Below, piece by piece: positions 32,073 to 56,188 of a DNA stretch of 64,000 nt. The stretch lies in the IMG/VR virus record IMGVR_UViG_3300025886_000014, positions 1-64,000 of that record; one strand, written 5' to 3'. Under the pieces are notes generated by a model. It did not search any database. It was not told the origin of the DNA and was given only the letters and a program-made list of their open reading frames with translations. This stretch comes from a virus. The first letter of the stretch is position 1. Every line of letters starts with the position of its first letter. A program made the translations under genes and the position numbers.

Positions 32073-32080
32073 TATTTATA
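32073..32080 (-). promoter_or_regulatory. T4-type late promoter at the end of the radical-SAM operon
   Basis: TATAAATA on the minus strand, 31 bases upstream of the fibre ATG at 32041 and overlapping the last codons of the operon gene at 32076-32522. It restarts late transcription exactly where the non-structural operon ends. Confidence 0.8.
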
Positions 32081-32522
32081 AGGTTTCTAAGGCTAGTTTA
32101 AACTCATCCTCATAATATTTTCTAACATCTGGAACCATTCCTTTCATTTTTAAAGGAAATTCTATATTTTTCAATATTTGATCATAAGTATCAATATCTA
32201 AATGATATTGAATAAAATGTGGATCGTTTTCCGCTAGTAGATATTTATCATTTAATAATTCAAAGAAATTTTCATCAAAATCTTGAGATAACCAATATGC
32301 ATAACATATAGCAACAAAATATGATTTTGCTGGTCTAATAGTTTCATCAACATATTCATTAAAGTGTAGTAAAGCATCCCTTACAATATTTTCTTCACTC
32401 CATGTCACATCCATTTTATTCAAATCATCTGAATACTCTCTATTAAGTAAGTGATAAACTTGGGACGCTGTTCTCCATTTTCTCATACCAATCCAATAGC
32501 CCTTTATATCCGTTACATCCAT
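32076..32522 (-). CDS. Unrecognised protein ending the radical-SAM operon
   Basis: A 148-residue protein rich in Asp, Glu, Tyr and Phe, predicted mostly helical (for example PAKSYFVAICYAYWLSQDFD and KYYEDEFKLALETL), with no recognisable family or metal motif. The start at 32522 has a good ribosome-binding site (AGGA, eight bases before ATG) but makes an 80-base overlap with the radical-SAM gene upstream. A second ATG at 32414, encoding an identical MDVT start, would remove the overlap but lacks a clear ribosome-binding site. It resembles in length and composition the small partner or leader-binding proteins found with peptide-modifying radical-SAM enzymes, but no sequence evidence supports that. 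Confidence 0.6.
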   Translation of the reverse strand: MDVTDIKGYWIGMRKWRTASQVYHLLNREYSDDLNKMDVTWSEENIVRDALLHFNEYVDETIRPAKSYFVAICYAYWLSQDFDENFFELLNDKYLLAENDPHFIQYHLDIDTYDQILKNIEFPLKMKGMVPDVRKYYEDEFKLALETL

Positions 32523-33372
32523 TATCTAAATCCTTGACATATCGGTAATGTTCTGTTAAACAATTACCGAAATATTTGCATGAAGCGCAAATCGGACTTA
32601 TCATTTCTTCTTTTTCTTTTTCTGCCCAATCCAAGTAAGATTGAAAAGAATCCAACTCTTTAAAGTATTCCCTATCGTGAACATCAAACTCCAATACTCC
32701 AAACTTGCCGTTAGGAGTAATGTAAACATGATCATCCGAAAATGCATTGTATAATCCACTAAAAGACTCCTCTATCTTGTTTGCATTTACAAATTGAAAA
32801 TCCATTTGATTTTCTAATTCCATCCACTGAATAACAAACTTTTCAAAATCTAAATGCGTCACAGTAAATGCATTTGCTTGATTAATAGAATATGGTTTAA
32901 TCTCTACTGATTTAACAGCACCACACATATTCAATAATTTTATCATTTCATTTACATTCATCTTTAAAACTTGCGGTGATGCAAGAATAAGAACAGCAAT
33001 CGGTACTGGACTCATCATCATATTCTGAAATACCAAATTTGATTTCTCTCTTGCTTCAAAATCGTAAGATACTGATAGATAAACATCGTCATCAAAGAAA
33101 CCATCATGCATCATAGAATAGTTTGTGTTGATATTTATTTTTTTACCATAATACTTTTTAATTGTATTTTTAACATCATAAAAATAATTTTTCTTCATAG
33201 CACCAATTTCACCACCATATAGATCAACATGCTCTATATCTGGAATTTGTGAAAGTAATTCATCAAGTCTCTCAATTGAAATTTTTTTCTGATCGCCTAA
33301 TTGTTCTGAAGTAAGATAACAAAAATCACAGCGAAAATTACAAAAATAAGATGGATTTACAGATACAATCAT
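32443..33372 (-). CDS. Radical-SAM protein with SPASM-like C-terminus
   Basis: A 309-residue protein. The motif C11-x3-C15-x2-C18 (PSYFCNFRCDFCYLTSEQLG) binds the [4Fe-4S] cluster that cleaves S-adenosylmethionine; DLYGGEIG a little after is the usual SAM-contact GGE motif. The C-terminus (SPICASCKYFGNCLTEHYRY, then NGCNGY) supplies further cysteines in a SPASM-like arrangement that in related maturases holds an auxiliary cluster near the peptide substrate. Its ATG overlaps the TGA of another radical-SAM gene upstream (ATGA). The family mostly modifies ribosomally made peptides or proteins; the substrate here is unknown. Confidence 0.8.
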   Translation of the reverse strand: MIVSVNPSYFCNFRCDFCYLTSEQLGDQKKISIERLDELLSQIPDIEHVDLYGGEIGAMKKNYFYDVKNTIKKYYGKKININTNYSMMHDGFFDDDVYLSVSYDFEAREKSNLVFQNMMMSPVPIAVLILASPQVLKMNVNEMIKLLNMCGAVKSVEIKPYSINQANAFTVTHLDFEKFVIQWMELENQMDFQFVNANKIEESFSGLYNAFSDDHVYITPNGKFGVLEFDVHDREYFKELDSFQSYLDWAEKEKEEMISPICASCKYFGNCLTEHYRYVKDLDNGCNGYKGLLDWYEKMENSVPSLSLT

Positions 33373-34403
33373 GCATATTCTCTTACATATTCAGTAACTT
33401 TAGTATCCATTCTATTTAAAGAGATTATATCTTTAGCCATAGATTTCATATGTTGACAGTGATCTTCAACCATGTTATGTTGTTTCAAATCTTTAATTGT
33501 TTTACGGCATCCATTACAAATTTCAAACATAGGACAGGTAAAACACGAATTTTTAAGACTCATTAAACTCAAATCATTACTGAGAGGTGTCTCAAAACCC
33601 CCATTCATTTCATATTCAAAATCTATTGGTTTGTCAAAATCATCACCGAAAGAACCACAAGAATAGTAATCACCTTCTGGTTGAATATTACGAATGCCAC
33701 TATCACAGTTTCTGGACTGAGGACATATGGTTGGTTTTTTTCTTAACCTATTTAACATTTGTTGAGTATTATGTTCCCAATCACTAAGTCCTGCTTTCCA
33801 AATTTGAATATATCTCTCATAAATTTTTGATAATCTATATGGTGCTGACTGAGAACCAGATGCCATAGCATAATTTACCTTACAAACAACATTCATCTTC
33901 TTAGCAAGTTGTACAGTCTGTATTACAGTATCTTCATTTTCATCCACAATTACCGCAATAAATGATGGTCTATAGCCTACATGCTCAAGCATCGCATCAG
34001 AACATTTCCAAAAATCTTCTTCTGTAAATTCACTGTAATCTCCCTTGAGCCTACCACCGCCATATTGAAATGAAGTCCCAACACCAATTCTATGATGATT
34101 AAAGAGTTCTGCCCATTTTTTTGGTTTCATTAAAAAAGGATACAAATTGGTTGTAAGGGATATTGTCGCTGGCATATCATGTTTATCTAAAAACTCTATT
34201 AATTTCCAATAGTAGTTTGGCCTCATCATTAAAGGATCACCACCATTTACGATGATAGTTTGCGTTTCAGGAAATCTTTTAAGAAATTTGAATATCTTAT
34301 TCAAATCAAGTACAGCAGTGTTATCCTCTTGAGTAATTTTAGAGGAAGAACAAAATGAACATTTAAAATTGCATAATTCTGTTGGTTTGATAATTAAGTC
34401 CAT
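33369..34403 (-). CDS. Radical-SAM/SPASM protein
   Basis: A 344-residue protein. It has C11-x3-C15-x2-C18 (ELCNFKCSFCSSSK), then TIIVNGGDPLMM as the SAM-contact motif, and a long cysteine-bearing C-terminal half: CPQSRNCDSG, YYSCGSFG, NSCFTCPMFEICNGCRK and a final HC. This is a full SPASM-type layout able to bind one or two auxiliary iron-sulfur clusters, as in peptide maturases (PqqE, AlbA and anSME types). It lies in the operon between a 2OG-oxygenase-like gene and another radical-SAM gene, overlapping both by a few bases. The domain assignment is strong; the substrate is inferred to be a peptide or protein. Confidence 0.85.
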   Translation of the reverse strand: MDLIIKPTELCNFKCSFCSSSKITQEDNTAVLDLNKIFKFLKRFPETQTIIVNGGDPLMMRPNYYWKLIEFLDKHDMPATISLTTNLYPFLMKPKKWAELFNHHRIGVGTSFQYGGGRLKGDYSEFTEEDFWKCSDAMLEHVGYRPSFIAVIVDENEDTVIQTVQLAKKMNVVCKVNYAMASGSQSAPYRLSKIYERYIQIWKAGLSDWEHNTQQMLNRLRKKPTICPQSRNCDSGIRNIQPEGDYYSCGSFGDDFDKPIDFEYEMNGGFETPLSNDLSLMSLKNSCFTCPMFEICNGCRKTIKDLKQHNMVEDHCQHMKSMAKDIISLNRMDTKVTEYVREYA

Positions 34404-34978
34404 GGAGAATTCTTTATATTAAAACCAAAATTCATTGTGATTCTTTGCACATTGGGTTTTCTAAAATCCTCAACTCTATGTTGAAAATTTAAATCTTGAC
34501 TACCTAATATTAAATCATATTTTTTTGGTAAGTGATAACAAGTGACACGTTTATTTTGTCTCATATTTCGGAACATTATTTCACCACCGACTCCTTGTTC
34601 CATATCAGTGAAATATAGTAAAAAGAAAACATTTGCACCTTCTCTTAAATCATTATGCCAAGAACTAGAACCATCACATGCTCCATTCCAAATATATGAA
34701 TATATTAATTTTTTGCTCTCATAACAATCGTCATACTTTGATAAGTATGTATCATACAATAAATCAGCAGTTTTCTTTATTTTGTTTCGCATACCATTCA
34801 AATGATAATTCCAACAAATGCTATAACTTTTACAATCATCACCATCATTTAACCATTTTATTTTTGGAATATTATCACTACTCATATTTAACCACTTTAG
34901 TTTTGGCATAGTATCATTGATATGAATAAACATATTTTTATTATTTTCCATAAGATATCCTTGGTCTTTCATTTCCAT
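34394..34978 (-). CDS. 2-oxoglutarate/Fe(II)-dependent oxygenase-like protein
   Basis: A 194-residue protein. The motif WHNDLREG gives an HxD pair, and FQHRVEDFRK followed by QRITMNFGF gives the distal His and the Arg that would hold 2-oxoglutarate, the facial triad of this superfamily. It is a clear paralogue of the gene immediately upstream: GGEIMFRNMRQNKRVTCYHL here versus GGEIMYRNMKQNKRITAFHL there. The ATG overlaps the end of that gene by 10 bases. Members hydroxylate proteins, nucleotides or small molecules; in this operon a role in modifying a peptide or surface protein is inferred. An ATG six bases in is an equally possible start. Confidence 0.8.
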   Translation of the reverse strand: MEMKDQGYLMENNKNMFIHINDTMPKLKWLNMSSDNIPKIKWLNDGDDCKSYSICWNYHLNGMRNKIKKTADLLYDTYLSKYDDCYESKKLIYSYIWNGACDGSSSWHNDLREGANVFFLLYFTDMEQGVGGEIMFRNMRQNKRVTCYHLPKKYDLILGSQDLNFQHRVEDFRKPNVQRITMNFGFNIKNSPWT

Positions 34979-35523
34979 GGAGATTCCTTTACTTTAAATC
35001 TAAAAAGCATTGTTATTCTTTCTTGCTTCAATTCTCTTGTATGCTCAACTCTATGCTGAAACTTTAAATCATCACCTACACTTCCCATTACTATATCATA
35101 TTTTTTAGGTAGATGAAAAGCAGTTATTCTTTTATTTTGTTTCATATTTCTGTACATTATCTCACCACCATTATTCGGTTCTGAGTCTGTAAAATACAAA
35201 TTAAATTGTAAGTTGCCACCTTCAGTATCATGATGCCACTCACACGAACCAGTGTCCGTCCCATTCCACATAGTATAATAATCCAAGTGTTTTTCGGTTT
35301 CCCACGGCAAGTAGGTTTCCCAAAGTAAATCGGCAGTTTTTAGCATCTTACTTTTCATGGAGTGGAAATAATAATTCCACGCGACGCTTTGCCATCTGTC
35401 AGATTTATCAGAATTACTTCTCTTTAAGTATAACCATTTTAATTTTGGTAATGTATCTTTTATATGAATAAACATATCAGGATTATTTTCAATAAAACAT
35501 CCAGAATTTTTATCAATATTCAT
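34969..35523 (-). CDS. 2-oxoglutarate/Fe(II)-dependent oxygenase-like protein (tandem paralogue)
   Basis: A 184-residue protein read from the ATG at 35523, which follows the upstream stop by one base. Metal and cosubstrate residues: HHD in SCEWHHDTEGG (HxD), the His of FQHRVEHTRE, and the Arg of QERITMLFRF. It shares the KKYDIVMGS loop and the EIMYRNM strand with its downstream neighbour, so the pair came from a tandem duplication. An in-frame GTG at 35541 would add six residues but sits inside the previous gene. Substrate unknown; oxygen- and 2OG-dependent hydroxylation is the expected chemistry. Confidence 0.8.
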   Translation of the reverse strand: MNIDKNSGCFIENNPDMFIHIKDTLPKLKWLYLKRSNSDKSDRWQSVAWNYYFHSMKSKMLKTADLLWETYLPWETEKHLDYYTMWNGTDTGSCEWHHDTEGGNLQFNLYFTDSEPNNGGEIMYRNMKQNKRITAFHLPKKYDIVMGSVGDDLKFQHRVEHTRELKQERITMLFRFKVKESPWK

Positions 35524-35524
35524 T

Positions 35525-36055
35525 TTATTCCCAGCCCACACTTACAGTCATTCTTGGTTTAGAGCCAAAATAAGGTCTAATACAATGTACCATAGAACTA
35601 TTAAAAACTACTAACCTACCCACTTTTGGTTGTATTCTAGTCTTATTTTTTGGATATTGAAAAATATCAAGAGAATCATAAATATCCAACTCACCACCTT
35701 GCCAACCATTATTATCTATATCTATAAAAAATAATGTAATGATTTTAGACTCTGTTCCATCATGATGTGGTTCCCAAATCATATTTTCATTATTATCTTT
35801 TTCATACTTGACAATTTTTATCAAATGTGATATAGCAATTTTTTTTACATTTGAATCTTTCACCATCGCAATAGTTTTTGCTTTATTCAGATTTGGAAAG
35901 TCATCCATATTATCTTTAATATTTATCGCCATATTTTTTTGCATGTTAAATCTTGGCAAATCCTCAATAGAGGGATTGGCAAAAGAAAACTTGCTTTGTA
36001 TTCTTTCAAGTTCTTTTTTATTCAAAAAATCATCATAAATTTCTACAGAATTCAT
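35525..36055 (-). CDS. Prolyl-4-hydroxylase-type 2OG/Fe(II) oxygenase
   Basis: A 176-residue protein of the compact P4H-like form. EPHHDGTESK supplies HxD, WQGGELDIYD is the strand that follows the active site in this family, SSMVHCIRPYFGSKPRMTVS supplies the distal His and, ten residues on, the Arg for 2-oxoglutarate. It is only distantly related to the two paralogues downstream. Such enzymes are common in marine T4-like phages. The start at 36055 overlaps the upstream B12-type radical-SAM gene by 23 bases, placing it in the same transcript. Confidence 0.85.
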   Translation of the reverse strand: MNSVEIYDDFLNKKELERIQSKFSFANPSIEDLPRFNMQKNMAINIKDNMDDFPNLNKAKTIAMVKDSNVKKIAISHLIKIVKYEKDNNENMIWEPHHDGTESKIITLFFIDIDNNGWQGGELDIYDSLDIFQYPKNKTRIQPKVGRLVVFNSSMVHCIRPYFGSKPRMTVSVGWE

Positions 36056-37700
36056 CTAATCTTTCCTTTATCATTTCTTCATTTTTATTTAATAATATTT
36101 TCATTTCATTGACAATATCTTTACCTTTAAAGCGTCCCACATCAAACTTATCTATGCTATGTGGATTTTTATCATAAAATATATTTCTTATTAATTCTTT
36201 GTAAACAAAAAACATAGGAATATCATTCAATATATTCCACAATTCTTTTGCTACCTCGGAAACATTTTCATATGTAGTATATTCACTTATAAAACTTAAA
36301 CCTATATGTGGTGTAAACAAATTCATTATAAACATTTCTAGATATTCTTCAAACGTATATGAAAAACACTCAATTATAGTATCATATTCATATGCAACAT
36401 CCCCATATATTGGATTTACTTCAACATCATCCCATTTTCCGCTATAGTTACCATCAAATTGTGTTAATACTTTTGAAGTTTTTATTTTATACTTTTCTTG
36501 ATATTCTTTACTGGCAGTTTCAGTCGCTGGTAAAACCATGTAAGGATATCTAGTGTCTGCCCATACGTCAAGACCTTTCCATTCTTCCCAATCTTTTCCT
36601 TCATTATACCCAACTCTATAGTATACTTTAAATTCCTCGTAAAAATCTTTTAGTGTAGATCCCGGCATCGCTAAAATTAATTCTAAGTCTAACCATAATT
36701 CTTTTTCTTTAAAATTATTCCATTTATTAGTTAAATGATCCACCAACTCATAAGTTTCCTCAACATTAAGGTCTCTCCTGTTCGCAATTTTTCTCGCTTC
36801 TGGTGATATTGATTGTAAACTGATACTGATAACTTGACGAGTAATATCATGCTCAATCATAAAATCAAGCATTTCTTTTTTCTGTTCCAATTTTAAAGTT
36901 TTTAATACCGATAGATTTTCACCAATTTGAACCCCATTATCCACCATGTGCATCATCATTTCTCTATCACGTTCTTTAAACATTCCTGTATTAGCATCAC
37001 ACAAATCAATATGTACACCTTTGAACCGCCCTATAAATTCCATTTCATCCTTTATCACAGCCATAGGTTTTTTTAGAACTTTTGTTCCAGTACCGCCACC
37101 CCACTCACAATAAGAACACTTAAATGGGCATCCTCTAGTACTTTCATATATCAATGTTATTCGCTCATATAAGTCTATATTTTTAATGAAATGCTTATAT
37201 TCTTTGGTAAAATAATCTTCACATCTCTTATATACATTCGTATGTCCAAATGGAAGAGGAATTTTTAAAGAACTACCCAAATAAAATGGAATCTTTTTCT
37301 TATCAACAGAATCCTCTAAATACATATCAAGAAAGTATTGAACGAATATTTCTCCTGGAGCAAGAGGGTCTGCAACATAGTCATAATCTTTTATTATATC
37401 AGGGTCTTGTTGAGGACCACCCATAACTACTATGGTATCTGAGTCAAGGCCATTTCGTATCCTTTGGTTAATTTTATAATTCCAAACATAATTGGTAAAA
37501 AATACAATAGAACACCCTTTAACATTATCCAAACAATCTTGTATTGTAACTTCATTCCATTTGAATATTGGCTCCACCCAAGTAACTTTTTCTGGATATT
37601 TACCGTAATCTTCATAAAAACATTTAAAAAGCATCCAATGATAATTAAATTCGGCCCTTGAAGGTATTCCTGTTGGATTTATATAACCTACTTTAATCAC
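36033..37700 (-). CDS. B12-binding-like radical-SAM protein
   Basis: A 555-residue protein. Residues 1-125 look like a cobalamin-binding Rossmann-type domain: TIVVMGGPQQDPDII and YVADPLAPGEIFVQYFL follow the 'vvvGGp ... D.vv.GEge' pattern, though no DxHxxG ligand motif is visible, so cobalamin, if bound, would lack the lower-axial His. The radical-SAM core follows, with C191-x3-C195-x2-C198 (RGCPFKCSYCEWGGG). Class B enzymes of this layout methylate or rearrange unactivated carbons, including in peptides (PoyC-like). GTG start at 37700 with GGAG ten bases upstream; it overlaps the previous gene by eight bases. The domain calls are strong, the reaction is not known. Confidence 0.8.
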   Translation of the reverse strand: MIKVGYINPTGIPSRAEFNYHWMLFKCFYEDYGKYPEKVTWVEPIFKWNEVTIQDCLDNVKGCSIVFFTNYVWNYKINQRIRNGLDSDTIVVMGGPQQDPDIIKDYDYVADPLAPGEIFVQYFLDMYLEDSVDKKKIPFYLGSSLKIPLPFGHTNVYKRCEDYFTKEYKHFIKNIDLYERITLIYESTRGCPFKCSYCEWGGGTGTKVLKKPMAVIKDEMEFIGRFKGVHIDLCDANTGMFKERDREMMMHMVDNGVQIGENLSVLKTLKLEQKKEMLDFMIEHDITRQVISISLQSISPEARKIANRRDLNVEETYELVDHLTNKWNNFKEKELWLDLELILAMPGSTLKDFYEEFKVYYRVGYNEGKDWEEWKGLDVWADTRYPYMVLPATETASKEYQEKYKIKTSKVLTQFDGNYSGKWDDVEVNPIYGDVAYEYDTIIECFSYTFEEYLEMFIMNLFTPHIGLSFISEYTTYENVSEVAKELWNILNDIPMFFVYKELIRNIFYDKNPHSIDKFDVGRFKGKDIVNEMKILLNKNEEMIKERLDEFCRNL

Positions 37701-38331
37701 CTTTATAGAACTCCATATTCATAAATTGTATCTTTGTGAACCCTTTTAAAACCTTAGACGTATATGGAGTTTCCATTATAGCACTGTCTGGATGGGTAGA
37801 CATTTTTTTCATTTGAGTGTATAGTGTTTTGGCTGTAGGAACGTAAATAGGTCTATTCTCAATTTCAGTTTTGCAAAATTTCACCATGATTTTATAAAAG
37901 TCTATTTCTTGCCTTCTGGTTAAGCAATCTCTATAAATTCCATTTATTTGAATATTTGACATTATTGTATAATTTTTAGTTTTCTCTGTACCAATCCACC
38001 CTAACTCATAATCATTATTCACTGCTGTTTTGGGTGACCCAGTAAATTGAGTAGTGTAATCTTCTATCATAGATTTACTATTAACTTCAGATAATAAATT
38101 ACTTGATAATGGAACACTAAAAACGTACACTTCACTACTCAAAAAATTATCTAAAAAATGAATACATGGGGGTAATTCTATATCAACTGAATAATCAAAT
38201 ACTGTACGGCACACATTATAGTCTATATCAATTTCTTTTATTGGAGTAATTAATCTTTTCGCTCTTGTTGGAAACCTATTTATAAAAGATTGACTTATTG
38301 GAGATTTATCACCATTTCCATAAAAAAACAT
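37693..38331 (-). CDS. Unrecognised operon protein (212 aa)
   Basis: I do not recognise this protein. It has mixed alpha/beta composition, three scattered cysteines (for example YNVCRTVFDYS and VKFCKTEIENR) and no paired metal motif, signal peptide or membrane helix. The C-terminal part ends VLKGFTKIQFMNMEFYKGD. It lies between two radical-SAM genes with a one-base gap upstream and an eight-base overlap downstream, so it is co-translated with them and probably acts in the same pathway, as an adaptor or transferase; that is position-based inference only. Confidence 0.6.
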   Translation of the reverse strand: MFFYGNGDKSPISQSFINRFPTRAKRLITPIKEIDIDYNVCRTVFDYSVDIELPPCIHFLDNFLSSEVYVFSVPLSSNLLSEVNSKSMIEDYTTQFTGSPKTAVNNDYELGWIGTEKTKNYTIMSNIQINGIYRDCLTRRQEIDFYKIMVKFCKTEIENRPIYVPTAKTLYTQMKKMSTHPDSAIMETPYTSKVLKGFTKIQFMNMEFYKGD

Positions 38332-38332
38332 C

Positions 38333-39373
38333 TCATCTTAATCCTTGATTTTCAATATATCTATGTGTCATCTTATAAACACATTCATCAAAAATTTCCT
38401 CTGCATATTTGTAATCGTGTGCCATGAAACACCCAAGAGTACATCTATGGAAATATTCACAAGTAGAGCAATTGTACTTCTCAAGAAATGCTTTCTCAAT
38501 AGGCTTATTATTGGCCTTTTGTATATCAGTTTTATACATTGCTTTATCTCTTGGCTCTTGAACAAGATTTCCACACAAACACATAGTCCCATCCTCAAGA
38601 ACTAATTTAGATGATCTGCATGAAACAACATTACGTTCATTTTCTATCCAAGAACGAATAGGTTCAATCTTAGGATAATTATCTATAAAATGTGTAAAAA
38701 TATCGTAATGTTCTTTATCTGTCGGCATACTTCTTTCTGCTTGACAATCGGGCATGTAGTAATCAGCATAAACCTTAACACCTTTATGATATAGATCATG
38801 CATAAAATCTTTTGGATCAGTAAGCCAATATCTTATATTTGATTTAGTTAGAAGAACACCTATACCTTCTAAATCATCCCAAAAATCATATACATTCTCT
38901 TTGAAAATTTCTAAGTTTGGTTTGTTAAATCTACCTCTAGGATCATATGAGGTTACAAGTTTTGTAGCACATCCCATATCCCTACACGCTTTTAATATTT
39001 CTCTCACATAATCCTTTTTACTAATAACAAGATTAGTTACCCAATTAATACTCACTTCATCAAAGTTATATTTTTTTCCTAAGTTTACTATTCCTTGAGC
39101 AAGAGAAATGTAGTCATTCTTCAATTTTTCATCAAAAATTTCATCGGCAAATATTTCGCCACCCATAATATTTAAAACAACACGTTTTCTCATTTCTTTC
39201 TCAAAGAATTTTTCTATTGATTCTAATTTATCTAAAACTGTATCAATACCCACAATGTTGTCATGGTCTTGCCAGCAAAATGGGCAAGATAGATTACAAA
39301 ACTCAAACAAATGAATTGTATATTCTTGCTGCTTATCTCTTTTATCTCTTAAAATAAAATCTACTAAATCCAA
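38333..39373 (-). CDS. Radical-SAM/SPASM protein with TTG start
   Basis: A 346-residue protein with C26-x3-C30-x2-C33 (FCNLSCPFCWQDH), GGEIF as the SAM motif, and C-terminal cysteines in CLCGNLVQE, NCSTCEYFHRCTLGCFMAHD and DECVYKMTH, again a SPASM-like auxiliary-cluster region. The reading frame begins at a TTG that follows the upstream TGA directly; an AGGAG eight bases before it supports this start. The Trp right after the third cysteine (CW) is a common variant in peptide maturases. Its reaction is unknown; chemistry on a ribosomal peptide is the best-supported class. Confidence 0.8.
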   Translation of the reverse strand: MDLVDFILRDKRDKQQEYTIHLFEFCNLSCPFCWQDHDNIVGIDTVLDKLESIEKFFEKEMRKRVVLNIMGGEIFADEIFDEKLKNDYISLAQGIVNLGKKYNFDEVSINWVTNLVISKKDYVREILKACRDMGCATKLVTSYDPRGRFNKPNLEIFKENVYDFWDDLEGIGVLLTKSNIRYWLTDPKDFMHDLYHKGVKVYADYYMPDCQAERSMPTDKEHYDIFTHFIDNYPKIEPIRSWIENERNVVSCRSSKLVLEDGTMCLCGNLVQEPRDKAMYKTDIQKANNKPIEKAFLEKYNCSTCEYFHRCTLGCFMAHDYKYAEEIFDECVYKMTHRYIENQGLR

Positions 39374-40027
39374 TCAAACTTCTCCTGCACCAACTCCCCA
39401 AGTTAATAGGAAAAGTGGATTTTTTTCATAGGACCAATAATCAAATAAACCCTTTCCATTAAACATATATTCATTAAAATATTTAGAATAATAGGTCAAG
39501 TTTTTTTCATCTAATCCATTGTAGTAATAATAAAAATCTTCATGTTTTAATAAAGATACAAAATTAATACCTTTTATATCATCAGTATCATCTTCTTCAT
39601 GTGATATTACCCAATCTTTCATCTCATCATCTTGGATAATATACATATTATAAAGTGTCAATGAATCTAACTTTTTAATCCAAGTATCAATGACTTCTTT
39701 GTTATCATCAATGAAATCTTGATAGCAACCTAAACATTCTAAAGATAGATTTTTTTTCACCAAAAGAACCTCAATAATAAATTCTTCTAAAACTTTAATA
39801 TTTAATATTTGTGGAAACTGAAGATATATTTTTGCAAGGTTCTCTAAATCATTTCCTTCAACTTTAATATCACAAGGTAACTCTAAGTTGCTTAAATAAA
39901 CGAGTAATTTCTCACCTTGTAACTCACTATTTTCATAATCAATAATAAAATTAATACTATCATCAGAAAAATATTTTTGTAAATCATCAATACCTAGTGG
40001 TGCAGTCACTGTAACATAATTATTCAT
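39374..40027 (-). CDS. Unrecognised acidic operon protein (217 aa)
   Basis: A very acidic protein (many Asp and Glu, for example SHEEDDTDDIKG) with Tyr-rich segments such as EDFYYYYNGLDEKN. It has no recognisable domain. Leu-rich amphipathic stretches (KIYLQFPQILNIKVLEEFII) suggest helices. It lies between the CHSN-tail gene and a radical-SAM gene, seven bases after the former. By position it could be an adaptor that presents the substrate, like the peptide-recognition partners of many peptide-modifying enzymes, but nothing in the sequence proves it. Confidence 0.6.
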   Translation of the reverse strand: MNNYVTVTAPLGIDDLQKYFSDDSINFIIDYENSELQGEKLLVYLSNLELPCDIKVEGNDLENLAKIYLQFPQILNIKVLEEFIIEVLLVKKNLSLECLGCYQDFIDDNKEVIDTWIKKLDSLTLYNMYIIQDDEMKDWVISHEEDDTDDIKGINFVSLLKHEDFYYYYNGLDEKNLTYYSKYFNEYMFNGKGLFDYWSYEKNPLFLLTWGVGAGEV

Positions 40028-40034
40028 AATAAAA

Positions 40035-40862
40035 TTATCTCCTATTTCTTGATGAATGGCAATTAGAGTGGCAATTAGAATGGCATACAGATTCAGTATA
40101 TCCTGCTATATTTCCATCTATAGCAACAGTTTTCCATGCCTCATATAGATTATTGAATAATGTTTCCATATCACCATCATCAATTAAATCTCCAGCGACT
40201 ATCATTGAATGATCAACATCAGAAGAATCAATGGTGAAACTATGTCTAGGAGTTAAAACGCCCACTCCACTAACACTTATTGCTTTACCTATAACAGCAC
40301 CACTTCGTAAACTAACTGCATATTTTTGTGTCGCTGATGTACAAGCCGATTGAGCGTCTGAACGTAAGGTCTCTGCTTCTTGTTTTGTGGAAGGTTTTCC
40401 ACCAATACCATATGAATTCCAATTTGTAAAAAACTCTGAGATAAATCCACCAAAAGTAACACCAGCCCCAGCAGATACTTCGTTGTCTAAAGCATCTCTC
40501 CATTCACAAGCAAAGTTTTTTTCCTTTTCTGCATTTTCGGTAGATGCCGTATTGCGTGACGGTATTGGTATATTTCCACCTGGAATACCAGTTACAGTTC
40601 TTGTGGCAGTAAATTTTCTAACTCTAGTATATTGGTTAATATCCTTTAATAGAACAGCAAAAATATTTGATGCTGTTATTGGCCCATCCAACAAATCAGG
40701 ATTTGTTGTCACACCAGTTGTATTTCCATGAAAATAACTTGCTACTGATGCAAATGGTAGATTATCATCACCAAACACAATAGCATCATTAATTTTATCA
40801 GTCACAAACTGTCTGTATTTTGTAATTACAGGGTTTTCTGTAATAGGGTCTGATATTGCCAT
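40035..40862 (-). CDS. Putative modified structural protein with a C-terminal Cys/His/Ser repeat tail
   Basis: A 275-residue protein. Residues 1-259 form an ordinary-looking body rich in Ala, Ser, Thr and Asp (MAISDPITENPVITKYRQFV, then GGNIPIPSRNTAST and FGGFISEFFTNW). The last 16 residues are CHSNCHSNCHSSRNRR, three CHS units spaced by Asn and ending in basic residues. Outside the tail there are only two cysteines. The gene lies directly between two radical-SAM/SPASM genes in an operon that also encodes 2OG-oxygenase-like proteins. A repeated Cys/His/Ser tail next to radical-SAM/SPASM genes is the layout of a ribosomal-peptide precursor whose core is cross-linked or hydroxylated; an alternative is a metal-binding tail on a fibre. 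The body does not look like a typical short leader. AGGAG-type ribosome-binding site before ATG. Confidence 0.7.
   Translation of the reverse strand: MAISDPITENPVITKYRQFVTDKINDAIVFGDDNLPFASVASYFHGNTTGVTTNPDLLDGPITASNIFAVLLKDINQYTRVRKFTATRTVTGIPGGNIPIPSRNTASTENAEKEKNFACEWRDALDNEVSAGAGVTFGGFISEFFTNWNSYGIGGKPSTKQEAETLRSDAQSACTSATQKYAVSLRSGAVIGKAISVSGVGVLTPRHSFTIDSSDVDHSMIVAGDLIDDGDMETLFNNLYEAWKTVAIDGNIAGYTESVCHSNCHSNCHSSRNRR
40056..40085 (-). repeat. 12-bp tandem repeat coding for CHSN units
   Basis: On the plus strand gcaattagagtg is followed by gcaattagaatg and a partial third copy. Each 12 bases encode Cys-His-Ser-Asn in the minus frame. The near-identity of the units points to recent slippage-type expansion of the tail. 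Confidence 0.85.
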
Positions 40863-40872
40863 TCTTTATCTC

Positions 40873-41892
40873 CTAGACATTCTTTGCCAATTCCATCATT
40901 AAACTTTTAGGTGCGCCACACACATCACCTTCCCATCCTAATTGGTGACAATCACCACCACAATATTTTGCAACAGGACAAGAAAGGCAATTGGGGTTTC
41001 TCATTTTTTCTTCAATAATAGTTCGTATTCTTCTAGGACTATTTATAAGAGTTTTAATAGAATCATCCAAAGTTCCGAATTGAAATTCTGGTGCTGAATT
41101 CGGACAACCACTTATTGTACCATCTCCATTTATTGTAAATAATTTTGTTTCACAATCTCTACAAAAAGTGCCACACGTAGTAAGAGTTTTCTCAAACTTA
41201 GCATATACATTTTCAAGAAAGTCATTTTCAAACCAATCTCGCGCACCATATTTTTCACTTTGTTGATGCATTTTCAAAAAATAAGCATCTAATTCTTTAT
41301 TAGATGGAAATATCTCTGATGCTTCTCTAGCATTACCATTATTAGTTAATCTCTCTAAGGATACTTCTTGAACCCCTAATCTTCTACACCATCTCAATAA
41401 TACAATAGGGTCTTTTTCTAAAGTATCTTTAGTAAGACTAATAAACAAACGTATAGTTACACCATCTGCTAAAAGAGACTTGACGTTTTTATGCCATAAG
41501 TTATATTGTCTTTGATTATCAAATCTTATCTTACGGTCCCATGAAGTTCCTAACCTATTCCTAAGTGGGCCTTTTATAAATTCTCTATGCTGATCTTTTA
41601 ATTTATATACTAAATTGGTTGTGGCTCCCCAACTCATATTATCCCAAAGACCATCACAAGCATCATACACTTTTCTCATTTGCCCTACAGGTACAAGAAA
41701 TGGTTCGCCACCATGAAACTCTAAATGAATACCATCATCCTTCGCAGGTTTTTCTTCACGAAATCTATGTATCCAATCAACTATCTTATCAGTATTCCAA
41801 TAAATTTTAGCACCGTTGCTACCAGAGGTAAAACAGTGCTTACAGTTTAATTGACAAGTTTCTGTGGTTTTAAGATATACTGACCAAAACAC
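40873..41892 (-). CDS. Radical-SAM/SPASM maturase next to the CHSN-tail gene
   Basis: A 339-residue protein, the clearest maturase of the set. C13-x3-C17-x2-C20 (ETCQLNCKHCFTSG) is the radical-SAM site and H60-GGEP (61-64) the SAM-contact motif. A middle stretch (TCGTFCRDCETKLF, then GDGTISGCPNS) and the C-terminal C302-x2-C305-x5-C311-x3-C315-x9-C325 (NCLSCPVAKYCGGDCHQLGW) form a full SPASM domain for two auxiliary clusters, as in anaerobic sulfatase-maturating and sactipeptide-type enzymes. GTG start at 41892 with GAGG upstream; it overlaps the cupin gene by 23 bases. It lies immediately upstream of the CHSN-tail gene, making that protein the most likely substrate (inference). Confidence 0.85.
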   Translation of the reverse strand: MFWSVYLKTTETCQLNCKHCFTSGSNGAKIYWNTDKIVDWIHRFREEKPAKDDGIHLEFHGGEPFLVPVGQMRKVYDACDGLWDNMSWGATTNLVYKLKDQHREFIKGPLRNRLGTSWDRKIRFDNQRQYNLWHKNVKSLLADGVTIRLFISLTKDTLEKDPIVLLRWCRRLGVQEVSLERLTNNGNAREASEIFPSNKELDAYFLKMHQQSEKYGARDWFENDFLENVYAKFEKTLTTCGTFCRDCETKLFTINGDGTISGCPNSAPEFQFGTLDDSIKTLINSPRRIRTIIEEKMRNPNCLSCPVAKYCGGDCHQLGWEGDVCGAPKSLMMELAKNV

Positions 41893-42388
41893 TATTCATT
41901 TTATCCTCTATAAATTTTTCTAAGCCAAAACTCAAAGTAAGTGCTTCATGTTCATTAAATGCTTGGTGAGGGGTATTCGCAGGAATATGTAGTGTTGCAC
42001 CTTCCTTCAAAGTAAATACTGGTTCACCACCCATAGTATGACCTTCCATTGCTATCGTTTTCATTCCTTCACAACAATATATAACGACATTATCTGGATC
42101 AGTATGTTTTTTGAATGAATGAGCATTTTTTTCAGCATAAAATAAATGACATGTTATTGGGCCATTATGATCATACATATCTTCTAGTTCTAAACAATAA
42201 GAAAAAATCTCCGAGTTATATGCTTCCATTCTTTCAATTTTTATTGAATTTGTATTTTTATTTGCAAGAGTATCCGCAAAATTTTTCATTAGATGTTCTC
42301 TGCCATTTTCATCTATTGCATAAACCATATTTTGTTCATACGCAAGATCACTCGCAATTATTTTTAAGAATTGACTCTTAGTAAGCAT
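41870..42388 (-). CDS. Cupin/JmjC-like protein, first gene of the radical-SAM operon
   Basis: A 172-residue protein. The C-terminal half is a double-stranded beta-helix: FKKHTDPDNVVIYCCEGMKT provides HxD, LKEGATLHIPANTPHQAFNE provides the distal His, and ALTLSFGLEKF is the closing strand. This is the JmjC/cupin-8 pattern of protein hydroxylases, but the identical fold also serves as a sensor or non-catalytic cupin. It opens the operon, 20-27 bases after a perfect sigma70-type promoter, with AAGGA eight bases before its ATG. It could be an oxygenase acting with the 2OG enzymes downstream. Fold fairly sure, activity not. Confidence 0.7.
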   Translation of the reverse strand: MLTKSQFLKIIASDLAYEQNMVYAIDENGREHLMKNFADTLANKNTNSIKIERMEAYNSEIFSYCLELEDMYDHNGPITCHLFYAEKNAHSFKKHTDPDNVVIYCCEGMKTIAMEGHTMGGEPVFTLKEGATLHIPANTPHQAFNEHEALTLSFGLEKFIEDKMNSVLVSIS

Positions 42389-42414
42389 AACAAAATCCTT
42401 TAATGACTAAGACT

Positions 42415-42443
42415 ATTATAAACTACATAGCCTAAAATGTCAA
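42415..42443 (-). promoter_or_regulatory. Consensus sigma70-type promoter of the radical-SAM operon
   Basis: On the minus strand TTGACA (42443-42438) and TATAAT (42420-42415) are separated by exactly 17 bases, the textbook consensus for the host housekeeping sigma factor. It lies in the 63-base gap between the fibre stop (42452) and the cupin ATG (42388). T4-like phages use such promoters early, before the TATAAATA promoters, so this operon may be transcribed early or continuously. Confidence 0.85.
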
Positions 42444-42451
42444 TATGTAAT

Positions 42452-50559: not shown

Positions 50560-51765
50560 TTAGATTAAAGCGTCCTTAGTTTGCTGTATTGTTTTTCCCT
50601 TAATATCACTTATAAGAGTTGAACCTATACTATACTTTGTATTTATATAGTTAGAATCACCTTTACAGTCACAAAACTCTTTAATTGTTCTATATCTTGG
50701 TGATGGGAAATTAATAGTATTTCCTACGCTGTCATAAGGAGCATTTGCCGCCGCTGATTGAAAACAAAAGTTTTGAACAGTAAGTGTTCCGATATTAATA
50801 CTGTCTAAACTATGATCTCTAAAATGATTACTAGATGAATAATAATCTGAATCTATAGATGATTTTATTTTTGTTAATGGTCTATTATTTACTCTTTCAT
50901 GAGTAATAAGACTTGGACTAAATCCAGTTGGCCCATACATATTACCAATAGAAGCGTCATACGACAACCCCCACTCCAACATTCCAGACGAGTCATCTAT
51001 GTAAAGAATTTTATCTGGATCAAACGCACCACTACTTGCTTCTATTACAACACAGTTTCCAGAAGGCACAATCGCAGTGCAACTTAAAGGAATATGTTCC
51101 ATAGAAAATTTATGACTTGAATCCTCTATTGCCAGATCAGGATCAATTGTGGGTGTTGGAGTCTCCGACTTTATAGTTACTGAATTATCAGTATTAATTT
51201 CCATTTCTGCTGCAAGATGAAATCCTGCTGGATGTACAAATTTTCTATAAAAATCTTCATATTCTCCAAGTGATGTTTTTGATTTAATTAGAACCGAAAG
51301 TACTTGATAAACTCCACCATCTTGAATTACTTTTGTTGAGTGTGGCCCGATTTCAGAAGCACTATCCCCAACCATAAATAAATCTTTTTTAGGATATATA
51401 ATTTCACTAGTATTATCATTATAAAATGATCTGAAAAATCCTTTCGCAGAGTACAGTGAACCTTTAACTCTAAAAAATTTTGCAAAGTTTCTTAAAACTT
51501 CTCTTGGTTCATTGAAAAATTCTTGGCCCATACCCAAAGCAAATTCTTTAAACATATTATCAATATATAAGAGATTAGTTGTTCCTATATCTCTAATATC
51601 ATATAAGTCTTTGATAACATCATTAAACTGACCATCAGAGTCCATATAATCATAATAGGTCTCTATAAATGTTATAAGGTTTGGATAAGAACTAGCAAAA
51701 TATTCTGGCAAAATGTCTTTTACCAAACTAGATTTTATGATATGATCAATTCTATTTTCTTTCAT
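50560..51765 (-). CDS. Baseplate wedge protein at the gp7 position
   Basis: A 401-residue protein starting IKSSLVKDILPEYFASSYPN, followed by LITFIETYYDYMDSDGQFND and DIGTTNLLYIDNMFKEFALG, then FAKFFRVKGSLYSAKGFFRS and EDFYRKFVHPAGFHLAAEME. These are standard phrases of a structural protein found between gp6 and gp8 in marine T4-like phages. T4 has gp7 (1032 residues) there, but this protein is much smaller and I see no direct sequence similarity, so I do not assign it as a true gp7. It is translated from the same late transcript as gp25, gp6 and gp8. Confidence 0.7.
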   Translation of the reverse strand: MKENRIDHIIKSSLVKDILPEYFASSYPNLITFIETYYDYMDSDGQFNDVIKDLYDIRDIGTTNLLYIDNMFKEFALGMGQEFFNEPREVLRNFAKFFRVKGSLYSAKGFFRSFYNDNTSEIIYPKKDLFMVGDSASEIGPHSTKVIQDGGVYQVLSVLIKSKTSLGEYEDFYRKFVHPAGFHLAAEMEINTDNSVTIKSETPTPTIDPDLAIEDSSHKFSMEHIPLSCTAIVPSGNCVVIEASSGAFDPDKILYIDDSSGMLEWGLSYDASIGNMYGPTGFSPSLITHERVNNRPLTKIKSSIDSDYYSSSNHFRDHSLDSINIGTLTVQNFCFQSAAANAPYDSVGNTINFPSPRYRTIKEFCDCKGDSNYINTKYSIGSTLISDIKGKTIQQTKDALI

Positions 51766-51766
51766 T

Positions 51767-53584
51767 TTATAATACTATCTTTTGGTCTGTATTTTCTATA
51801 TTTCCATAAGACCGTGATACACCCGTATCCAATGTAAGGATATAATTTCTTAAAGGGGATATGACTGCTTGATCTTGTGGGACTACTGATACTTTGATTT
51901 CTGACAAGCCACCAACAATGGATGTTGGAGCAAAGGTATTAATTGTTAGTACGCCATTAAGATTATCATATGAACCTATGCCAGTTTCAAGAATAGTTCC
52001 AGTAGCGGGAACAAAAATTTCTATTTTATTTGAAGATAACTTATTTCTAAAAATGCAAACGCTGTTTCTATAAACAAATTGTGAAGATTGTATAGTATGT
52101 GTAGTATCGTTAAATGATGCTAACGGAATTGGAAAATTCAAAGAATATGAATTGATGCTCCCTAAAATTGGTGAGAATCTTTGTTGAACTTTAATATCCA
52201 TTTTAGAAGATAATATGGAACGATCAACACTATCAATACCTGTTAGTAATGGAGACCTTCTAAATTTATTTTCAAATTTACCTAAATTGTTTGTAAAATA
52301 TGTTGAAATATAACTATCAACTAATGTTTCTAAGGTTGATAATGTTGATGATGTTAAACCATTATTATAATAAAATTCTGTGGTTGTTTCAACATATGTG
52401 ATTTGTGGTTCTACGAATACGTTGCCTATAGACATAATGGATAAATTATCAGTAAACGATGTTTTTATTTGATTTTGTGTAGATGTTTTTATGTCATCGC
52501 TGGTTCCATCTGGAAACTTTAATGACATATAAACTTTTCCATAATCTTTTGGAATATTCTGTTCTCCACCCCAAACTGCTGCGTCTGTAACAGTAGGAAA
52601 CTTAGATAATATCATACCTTTATAATCTAAAGGTGTAACTAATCTTTGCTGAGAAGAAAATTGTATAGGTGCAAGTTTTTTAATTGTCTCAATAGATTCT
52701 CTGTCTGTTCCAGAATGTGATGCTATTTGAGTACCAACGCTAATGTTATAACTAACACTGTTTACCACTAAAGACCCTATCGCAGAAAATGTAGTAGAGC
52801 CGTTTGCATCTGGTCCAGAAACTACATTATATGTCACTAATATTTTTCCACCAACAGGCGGTGCTTTTCCAAAAGACACTCCATCTCCAAAATTAAGTTC
52901 ATAATGACCATTAGGAGATTCTTTTATATCGTAATATTCTGTTGTTGCTGTGACTTCAATAGCATCCTCTAAAAAAGTGTAAGTAGTGTAGAGTGATGTT
53001 GTTGGTGTATCATACACTCTAACATCAAGAGTGCTTGTATCTATATTTTCATCTGGAATGACGTATGTTTGATTTGTTGACAGAGAGTCAACTAAGAAGG
53101 TTTTTGTTTTTGTTGTGCCTTCATAAACTAATACATTTTCAAATGTATAAAGACCACTTAGATCATTTGCTGTTACTGCTGCCCTACTAGAAAATTCGTA
53201 TGATCCTGTGTCATTTGAGGCTGTGAATGATGTTCCTATAGGTAAAGTTATTGAGGACGGTCTGCCCCCAACCCCCGATAAATCTATGGATGCTGTTATT
53301 GTTGATTTTGACGCATTTTTTGATTTTGGTCTATACCCAAGACCTTCAGCATGAGATACTACAGATGATCTTAATTGTGCAGTGTTTAGAAAAGACTCAT
53401 TAGTAGCAAAGTTTGCTATCAATCCATTAAAATGTGTATTATATGCCAAAACATCTAAAATATTTGATAAGCCTGATGTTTCAAAATCATAGTCACTAAA
53501 CTCAGTACTATTCGCAAGATAAGTTTTTAATGATGATTTTATTTGATCAAAATCTAATTGAGTTGATGTAATATTTGTTGCCAT
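51767..53584 (-). CDS. 6: Baseplate wedge protein gp6
   Basis: A 605-residue protein close in size to T4 gp6 (660). Signature: LDFDQIKSSLKTYLANSTEF, then SGLSNILDVLAYNTHFNGLI, then ANFATNESFLNTAQLRSSVV and SHAEGLGYRPKSKNASKSTI, all typical of gp6. The centre belongs to the Baseplate_J-like family (YYDIKESPNGHYELNFGDGV, then TPLDYKGMILSKFPTVTDAA). gp6 dimers link neighbouring wedges into the inner ring around the hub and change conformation on contraction. One base separates it from the gp7-position gene and it directly follows gp25. Confidence 0.92.
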   Translation of the reverse strand: MATNITSTQLDFDQIKSSLKTYLANSTEFSDYDFETSGLSNILDVLAYNTHFNGLIANFATNESFLNTAQLRSSVVSHAEGLGYRPKSKNASKSTITASIDLSGVGGRPSSITLPIGTSFTASNDTGSYEFSSRAAVTANDLSGLYTFENVLVYEGTTKTKTFLVDSLSTNQTYVIPDENIDTSTLDVRVYDTPTTSLYTTYTFLEDAIEVTATTEYYDIKESPNGHYELNFGDGVSFGKAPPVGGKILVTYNVVSGPDANGSTTFSAIGSLVVNSVSYNISVGTQIASHSGTDRESIETIKKLAPIQFSSQQRLVTPLDYKGMILSKFPTVTDAAVWGGEQNIPKDYGKVYMSLKFPDGTSDDIKTSTQNQIKTSFTDNLSIMSIGNVFVEPQITYVETTTEFYYNNGLTSSTLSTLETLVDSYISTYFTNNLGKFENKFRRSPLLTGIDSVDRSILSSKMDIKVQQRFSPILGSINSYSLNFPIPLASFNDTTHTIQSSQFVYRNSVCIFRNKLSSNKIEIFVPATGTILETGIGSYDNLNGVLTINTFAPTSIVGGLSEIKVSVVPQDQAVISPLRNYILTLDTGVSRSYGNIENTDQKIVL

Positions 53585-54052: not shown

Positions 54053-54060
54053 TATTTATA
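54053..54060 (-). promoter_or_regulatory. T4-type late promoter of the wedge genes
   Basis: TATAAATA on the minus strand in the 45-base gap between the spike gene and gp25, 27 bases upstream of the ATG at 54025. Confidence 0.8.
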
Positions 54061-54070
54061 AAGTTTTCAT

Positions 54071-56188
54071 CTAACTTGAAGTGTAATCCTCACCATACGC
54101 ATCAACAATATTCATTGAATCTGCTATTTTTCCAACATCTTGTTCTGGAATTTCTACTAAATCTGTTGAACTAAGAACATTATTGTTCCATAGTGTTTCT
54201 AAATCCATTTTAAAAAATGCTTTATAGTTGGATGGTATTTTTGGAGTACTTATTGCAATTTGGGCATGATGTGACTCATTATTTGGGTCTAATTTATCAT
54301 AGTATAACGACATTTTATCGTACTGAATATTATCTTTAAGATATACCGCCAAATCATACGTCTTACTTAATGCTACTTTTCCAGTTGTAACAGAAATTAA
54401 TTCATAAACTATTGCTCTACCAGTTTGTTTTAAGTCATTAATACTTTCGCTCTCTACAACTTCTTCTGGTCCTAGTTTGTAAATACCTTCTGCGACATTT
54501 AAAGAATAACCATCAAACTGATCAAGAGTTTGATATAGATCAATAATTCTAGCATGAGGAATAAGATTCCTTGCGATTGCTCTCCTATCCTCTAAGGCAA
54601 CTATGTGTGAAATAGTTATTGGGTCACCTTCAGTTGCAGAAAATTTTGATATTGAGGTATTATTTGATAATTTTGTACTTGAGTTAATTACAGTTAGTGT
54701 TGATGGATTAAATAATGGATTTGGTATCAACTGGTGATGCTTATCTTTTTCTGCGGCCTCTGAATGTAATGTTCTAGTAATTCTAGACTCTCTTCCATGC
54801 GGCCCAATATCTTTAGAACCCGATACTGTATTTTCTTTTTTATTCACCATTCTTCCTAATTCGGTTGGTGCGGGATCACTATATGTAGGAGATAAAACTC
54901 CTTTACTCACTTGCCTTAAAATAAATTTACTGTTTTGTAAATTATTAGAGTTTTTAAGTTTTGATCTTACAGAACTTATTGTTAAATTGTTTTCAGTAAT
55001 CCCACCAGTTGGAACAGATAAGTCTATTGAATTATTAATACCACCATCAGCATCAACGCTACATTGTCTAATTCCAAATCGAGTTTCTGATAATATTCTT
55101 TTTATTTCAGAGTCTACTGGCTGTGCAGTTTCGTCTAAATTTGCTGAAAAATTTGTTTGCCTTTCAAATTTTTGATCAGATGGTTTCGCACCTCTACCAG
55201 GAGTTGCAACTCCTGCCTTATTTGCAAATTCTGCACCAGAAGCATTCCCAGCCAAATAACCTACAAATTTTCCGTCTGCTTTGGCGTTATTGGTTATGTA
55301 TAAATTTTTAGTTTGAACAGTTTCATTAACAAAAATATTCTTAGAGTAAGTTATCATATCTTTACCACCAATGGTTCCAGCAGTACCAATACAAGTCATA
55401 TTTTCGGCAATCATATTAATATTTGGAGAACTTATCGCTAAATCTGTTTCTGAGGTAAACGTCAAAGAACCTTTATGTGAATAATCACTAGAACCGTCTA
55501 TAATATTTGTTAAACTACCTTTTATAGCATTTGTCACATTACCTAACAAAGTATTAGTAGATTGTTTAAGAACTGTCACTGATTTGGATTTTTTTATATA
55601 TTCTCTCATCACACCACCAATAGTTTTTGTGAAGGAACCCACAATATCTAAAACTTTTTTACCACCTACATTGATATTATAGTCACCTTTTACATTTAAA
55701 TTGTAATCACCAGTAACTGTCATATTCAAATTTCCAGTATACAAAACTGTACCGTCACCCTCAATCGTCATCGTGTGTTCGCCACTACAAATATCAATTC
55801 TATTACCAGTACTATTGATAATTATAGTACCATCTGGTTGTATGTCAACTCCAGCACCACAAGCATGTTTCAAAAGTATTCTCTCTCCACCCGGCGTATC
55901 ATTTACTTCAATTACGTGACCACATAAAGACTCATCAACTTGAACTTTGGAGTAATCATAATCATGAACTGGTTGGTAACCCATACCTTTTCCAGGAATA
56001 CCATTTTTAATATTTAAATTATTTGTATTTTCACCTCTAGCAGATTCATTTATAGAACTTTTTCCAGTATATTCTGCTTTTGGAAACTGATTTGAGGGAT
56101 CAAGAAAACCTTTTCCAACGCCTTGATTTTCATTGGCAAATGGAAAATTCTTTTCTCTGGTTATAATATCATCTATCTCTGTTGTCAT
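54071..56188 (-). CDS. 5: gp5-like central spike protein with beta-helical repeats and C-terminal extension
   Basis: A 705-residue protein. Residues about 85-140 (GHVIEVNDTPGGERILLKHA, then GVDIQPDGTIIINSTGNRID) begin a triple-stranded beta-helix whose repeats follow (LNMTVTGDYNLNVKGDYNIN and so on to about residue 310), as in the T4 gp5 C-terminal spike. It lacks the OB and lysozyme parts, which are in the gene at 58106-58984. After a linker, residues about 500-680 form a domain with NDLKQTGRAIVYELISV and LAVYLKDNIQYDKMSLYYD, which looks like a peptidase-M15-type fold lacking its catalytic His and Asp. The spike would pierce the outer membrane; a role for the last domain is unknown. Confidence 0.7.
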   Translation of the reverse strand: MTTEIDDIITREKNFPFANENQGVGKGFLDPSNQFPKAEYTGKSSINESARGENTNNLNIKNGIPGKGMGYQPVHDYDYSKVQVDESLCGHVIEVNDTPGGERILLKHACGAGVDIQPDGTIIINSTGNRIDICSGEHTMTIEGDGTVLYTGNLNMTVTGDYNLNVKGDYNINVGGKKVLDIVGSFTKTIGGVMREYIKKSKSVTVLKQSTNTLLGNVTNAIKGSLTNIIDGSSDYSHKGSLTFTSETDLAISSPNINMIAENMTCIGTAGTIGGKDMITYSKNIFVNETVQTKNLYITNNAKADGKFVGYLAGNASGAEFANKAGVATPGRGAKPSDQKFERQTNFSANLDETAQPVDSEIKRILSETRFGIRQCSVDADGGINNSIDLSVPTGGITENNLTISSVRSKLKNSNNLQNSKFILRQVSKGVLSPTYSDPAPTELGRMVNKKENTVSGSKDIGPHGRESRITRTLHSEAAEKDKHHQLIPNPLFNPSTLTVINSSTKLSNNTSISKFSATEGDPITISHIVALEDRRAIARNLIPHARIIDLYQTLDQFDGYSLNVAEGIYKLGPEEVVESESINDLKQTGRAIVYELISVTTGKVALSKTYDLAVYLKDNIQYDKMSLYYDKLDPNNESHHAQIAISTPKIPSNYKAFFKMDLETLWNNNVLSSTDLVEIPEQDVGKIADSMNIVDAYGEDYTSS

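Follow-up and report, generated by a model that had tools for sequence, protein, structure and literature searches.

A conserved sigma70-class promoter and an internal late box on a putative protein-modification operon among the late fibre genes of a marine T4-like phage

The window analysed here, a stretch of 64,000 nucleotides from the IMG/VR virus record IMGVR_UViG_3300025886_000014 (positions 1 to 64,000), represents the structural region of a T4-like marine myovirus, whose record is 66,122 bases long, and nearly all of its genes are carried by the minus strand. Its baseplate wedge is closest to those of Phage C48C1, Melnitz and HTVC008M. Among the late structural and fibre genes lies an operon of putative protein-modification genes (42388 to 32076, minus strand; Table 1), on which two promoter elements of different classes are found, a perfect sigma70-class site at the junction between a fibre gene and the cupin gene that opens the operon, and a T4-type late box inside the second gene. 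Both elements are present and conserved among relatives, and the genes behind the two motifs fall into different classes. It is probable (roughly 0.6) that the sigma70 site is a functional early-class promoter of the operon and that the internal box is a late promoter which boosts the substrate gene and the later genes; the activity, the timing and the identity of the substrate in this statement are inferred from sequence. Both promoter types are known. The novelty lies in their combination on an apparently undescribed protein-modification operon among late fibre genes, and joint early and late promoter use on a fibre-region operon of this kind was not found in the literature searched.

Table 1. 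Promoter elements, operon genes and neighbouring late boxes in the window
Feature	Position	Strand	Remarks
Late box	54053..54060	-	Closest intergenic late box ahead of the operon; baseplate/fibre block; could read through into the operon
Sigma70-class promoter	42415..42443	-	-35 TTGACA 42443-42438; 17-bp spacer; -10 TATAAT 42420-42415
Predicted 20-nt leader with AAAGGA ribosome-binding site	42389..42408	-	From sequence and promoter geometry
Cupin/JmjC-like protein, first operon gene	41870..42388	-	Pfam Cupin_2 1.5e-6, JmjC_2 2.9e-6
Radical SAM/SPASM protein, peptide-maturase-like	40873..41892	-	phrog_1802 1.8e-61; TIGR04085 SPASM domain above cut-off
Internal T4-type late box TATAAATA	41040..41047	-	Lies within the radical SAM gene; 177 nt ahead of the substrate gene
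Likely substrate (precursor) protein	40035..40862	-	C-terminus CHSNCHSNCHSSRNRR; invariant C-terminal tail
Conserved protein	39374..40027	-	phrog_20767 6.9e-53
Radical SAM protein	38333..39373	-	Pfam Radical_SAM 5.7e-5, under curated cut-off
Protein without PHROG or NCBIfam match	37693..38331	-	PHROG and NCBIfam searches
B12-type radical SAM protein	36033..37700	-	NF033712 KedN5-like 1e-23, under curated cut-off
2OG-Fe(II) oxygenase	35525..36055	-	PF13640 1.9e-7
Probable 2OG-Fe(II) oxygenase	34969..35541	-	PF13640 7.8e-4, under curated cut-off
Protein resembling the oxygenase-like protein 34969-35541	34394..34978	-	Likeness by eye; no Pfam match
Radical SAM protein	33369..34403	-	PF04055 2.7e-10
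Radical SAM protein	32443..33372	-	PF04055 7.1e-8
Last operon gene	32076..32522	-	phrog_20737 2.1e-31
Late box TATAAATA	32073..32080	-	31 nt upstream of the next fibre gene 30812-32041; would restart late transcription for that gene

Early and late promoter classes around the operon

An earlier note on this DNA had reported a TTGACA-17-TATAAT promoter without mismatch exactly at the junction between the fibre and the operon, and this is borne out. The site, TTGACATTTTAGGCTATGTAGTTTATAAT (0 mismatches, 12/12 hexamer bases, spacing 17), falls entirely within 42389-42451, the 63 nt that separate the fibre stop (42452) from the cupin ATG (42388). The ATG follows 26 nt past the -10 hexamer, and the predicted transcript start is an A at about 42408. 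The perfect 17-spaced pair of hexamers occurs as a single copy in the 66-kb record, as against 0.09 expected from dinucleotide shuffles. When spacings of 16-18 are allowed, the window holds a second perfect site, TTGACA-16-TATAAT at 55848..55821 (minus strand), within the structural gene 54071-56188; hence a perfect match alone is not decisive, and position and conservation are. The sequence of this second site (55821-55848) was found in identical form in two other genomes, G003 and G028. Weaker promoter-like sites in a consensus scan of the window were at chance level only, and an Rfam scan of the window and of the related loci L006, L007 and L014 gave no match.

In marine T4-like phages the sigma70 promoters are taken as early and the motif (N/T)ATAAATA as late (PMC2984593, PMC9004378, PMC3037559). 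The record is a 66-kb fragment with structural genes only, and the comparisons with early genes were made in relatives. Across the fetched relatives and the window record, 28/44 of the TTKACA-17-TATAAT sites are placed 3-60 nt upstream of a gene start, compared with about 2-5% of positions. Those examined in the relatives G021 and G025 precede the genes for SSB (gp32), the sliding clamp, DNA polymerase, the primase-helicase and NrdB (ribonucleotide reductase small subunit), as well as an exonuclease and a nucleotide-sugar epimerase. The late motif TATAAATA, on the other hand, precedes the baseplate wedge, tube cap, tail sheath, tail tube, portal and neck genes in the large relatives, and it stands 3-60 nt upstream of genes in 25/44 copies in G025 (8% for permutations) and in 17/30 copies in G021 (7%). 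Since the motif of the junction site stands before genes of replication and nucleotide metabolism, and TATAAATA before virion genes, the junction site is assigned by its sequence to the early (host sigma70) promoter class. In a further relative, G029, near-identical TTGACATTYGTTCT..TATAAT promoters occur in series (50758-52229 and 55759-55787), each before a small gene, in the manner of a repeated early promoter cassette.

The late promoters which had been claimed for the surrounding structural genes are likewise confirmed, by the placement of TATAAATA in gaps upstream of genes and not by its raw count. The latter (15 in the window, 13 expected) shows no over-representation and was dropped as evidence, being at chance level, with placement tested in its stead. 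In the window record, 5/15 copies fall 3-60 nt before the start of a gene on the same strand, where permuted 8-mers give 3%. Of the intergenic gaps of at least 20 nt in the window, six hold or touch TATAAATA; the remaining one, 42389-42451, is free of it and carries the sigma70 site.

The early promoters of S-PM2, Syn9 and Melnitz have these hexamers at this spacing too, in front of replication genes (PMC2984593, PMC9004378). As in those phages, relatives of the window (G021, G025 and G026) encode, for the late class, a homologue of the sigma factor gp55, the window fragment itself being without a gp55 gene. The site described here differs from these promoters in lying between late fibre genes and in that it would drive a modification operon rather than replication genes.

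The operon and its likely substrate

The first radical SAM/SPASM protein matched peptide-maturase models below their cut-offs; none of the RiPP maturase families was above its curated cut-off, and the general SPASM domain model alone passed. The third gene of the operon encodes a protein of 275 residues, which ends in the tail pattern CHxxCHxxCHxSRxRR shared with the family of loci L001-L029. The residues C260, H261, C264, H265, C268, H269, R272, R274 and R275 are invariant in 20 sequences whose mean column identity is 30%. No curated family covers this tailed protein. Its fold model (pLDDT 78) found no match among solved structures and matched uncharacterised phage proteins only, including one of the jumbo phage Atu_ph07, and a virion role is neither supported nor excluded by the predicted fold.

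RiPP operons are recognised by a conserved modifiable core in a co-encoded precursor, and such a core is present here in the invariant CHxxCHxxCHxxRxRR tail. The tailed protein is the likely substrate of the operon enzymes, and the substrate would be sought in the operon itself, not elsewhere among the virion genes; the earlier note had considered the case of a virion protein as substrate. As in the radical SAM RiPP operons of the PapB, DynA and His-Xaa-Ser families, a SPASM-type radical SAM protein is encoded beside a gene with a conserved Cys/His-rich C-terminus, and further oxidative enzymes are present. Unlike in those operons, all family models are far under their cut-offs, the precursor has 190-320 residues and is not a short peptide, and the operon sits in a phage fibre region. 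No phage radical SAM system of this type was found described in the literature searched.

The tail, as CHxxCHxxCHxxRxRR, is also found behind the same cupin and radical SAM genes in the jumbo phages Atu_ph07, Phosso, FLC6 and DT01, and the jumbo phages that share the family are phages of Agrobacterium, Sinorhizobium, Burkholderia and Pseudomonas. The first genes stand in the same order (cupin, radical SAM, tailed protein) in Atu_ph07, Phosso, FLC6/FLC8, SURPRISE13 and pPa_SNUABM_DT01, but before the cupin of these jumbo phages neither a perfect sigma70 site nor TATAAATA was found. In Atu_ph07, CATAAATA stands 40 nt ahead of the tailed gene, and no late box was seen close to the substrate gene of Phosso.

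The internal late box and the proposed timing

What would separate the enzymes and the substrate in time is the internal late box, which was missed by the earlier note. The motif TATAAATA is found shortly upstream of the tailed gene in all checkable loci except L029, where two copies of AATAAATA take its place. Three positions are occupied by the box, namely codon 282 of the radical SAM gene of the window, a point about 21 nt further on (L023), and the radical SAM stop codon, the last of these being 26-34 nt upstream of the tailed gene (L008-L019 and L021-L022). A late box at most 200 nt upstream of the substrate gene is present in 11/12 representatives, which are not independent of each other, compared with 4% expected for each. 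A codon alignment of seven representatives, all picked because they have the box, shows no other invariant 8-mer in the radical SAM gene and no other run of three invariant wobble bases. Upon synonymous shuffling, the box of the window arises in 6%, which is not significant alone, and those of other relatives arise in 0.7% to 13%. The recurrence of the box at different positions is taken to be a stronger argument than either the codon test or the shuffling. An early and a late promoter on one unit are also known from the 'middle' genes of RB49, S-PM2 and Syn9 (PMC2984593). Unlike the overlapping promoters of those phages, the late box here is internal and precedes the likely substrate gene, and the two promoters would serve different parts of the operon.

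Under the preferred reading, host RNA polymerase with its housekeeping sigma factor would read the sigma70 site early in infection, and this early transcription would cover the whole operon independently of the surrounding late programme, with the cupin and the first radical SAM protein present first. The late polymerase at the internal box would add transcription of the substrate gene and of the enzymes behind it, most of the substrate would be made once the late polymerase takes over, and late read-through from the fibre block into the operon is likely as well. As no terminator was found between the two promoters (terminators in the consensus scan being at chance level), the early RNA should also include the substrate gene, and the order in time would therefore not be strict. 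The proposal that enzymes accumulate before their substrate survives in part: the early-class site argues for enzymes that start early, but the substrate, as the third gene of the same operon, would be transcribed together with them. Enzyme before substrate would then be a question of amounts, with the greatest effect on the cupin and the first radical SAM protein. The suggestion that the operon is made early or at all times is well founded in the early-class motif and its conservation. The guess on timing now takes the form of two predicted transcript starts, an early one at about 42408 and a late one just downstream of 41040, and the Cys-His-tailed protein is the product to look for by mass spectrometry. 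If this reading is right, the arrangement shows how a phage can time the post-translational modification of a late protein of its own. A more elaborate version is judged less likely than not, namely that a single operon has enzyme-before-substrate timing built in, with an early host-read promoter for the radical SAM machinery, a gp55-type late promoter that is kept by selection in spite of its changing position and supplies the Cys-His-tailed protein at virion assembly, and, as the outcome, a chemically cross-linked phage component of a sort not yet described.

Alternatively, the operon could be a self-contained cargo cassette with a constitutive promoter, which is on throughout infection, so that early timing is irrelevant to the substrate and the late box is incidental. 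The T4-style middle system is absent from marine T4-like phages, and without that switch host sigma70 promoters need not shut off (PMC2984593). Radical SAM cassettes are reported to come and go near the fibres of pelagimyophages, in a study where promoters and substrate were not analysed (PMC7029224), and C48C1, the nearest annotated relative, has the fibre-region genes without the modification operon. A late box that stands before the tailed gene in nearly all representatives, at different positions, is however hard to call incidental, and the constitutive cassette is considered rather unlikely.

Conservation of the junction promoter among relatives

With the radical SAM protein as query, a scan gave 30 related viral loci (L001-L030), in which the site was counted as kept if both hexamers had at least 10/12 bases, the spacing was exactly 17 bp and the position was the fibre/cupin junction. 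The promoter is kept in 22/30 loci (L001-L020, L028 and L030), as TTGACA or TTTACA 17 bp before TATAAT, or before TAAAAT in L014. Among 11 distinct sequences the pairwise identity is 94% in the hexamers as against 45% in the spacer. The deeper relatives L023, L024, L026, L027 and L029 have no such sigma70 consensus site at the junction, where the gap is small or absent, and L021 and L022 are without the cupin. A doubtful TTTACA-17-TATAAT within the start of the cupin reading frame of L025 was left out of the count. The junction promoter is, judging by this distribution, a trait of the lineage of the window and not of the whole gene set.

These loci bear on a second alternative, in which the operon is effectively late, being transcribed mainly by read-through from the fibre block with little added by the sigma70 site. 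No terminator was found between the fibre and the operon, and in L023, L024, L026 and L027 the cupin gene begins directly at the fibre stop or overlaps it and leaves no room for a promoter, so that read-through suffices there. Yet 22 loci retain the hexamers and the 17-bp spacing in spite of a changing spacer sequence, so something selects for the site, and an effectively late operon is improbable. A chance match in an AT-rich genome, for which it speaks that 9/100 dinucleotide shuffles of the window hold at least one perfect 17-spaced match and that weaker matches are at chance level, is ruled out by the conservation over diverged junctions unless the sequence is kept for another reason, and is given hardly any weight.

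The relatives show further variation in their promoters. Two tandem TTTACA-17-TATAAT promoters, 70 nt apart, lie upstream of the cupin in L013. The cupin ATG stands only 7 nt past the -10 hexamer in L008-L013, L015-L019 and L030, and the early mRNA would therefore be leaderless; some further sites of the early type in G021, G025 and G029 show a similarly short distance from the -10 hexamer to the start. L021 (15907-15935) and, at the same place, L022 carry a TTTACA-17-TATAAT within the operon, in the 3' portion of the gene for the B12-type radical SAM protein.

A second, divergent site, TTGACA-16-TATAAT, is found on the minus strand of L006 (about 3193-3220), L007 (9432-9459), and L014 and L020 (near 9430-9460). 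These sites have the initial sequence AAGAYTCTKCTTAGTGAG in common and face the 3' end of the fibre gene in antisense orientation. They are not followed by an ORF of at least 50 aa, and they may possibly give rise to an early antisense RNA against a late gene.
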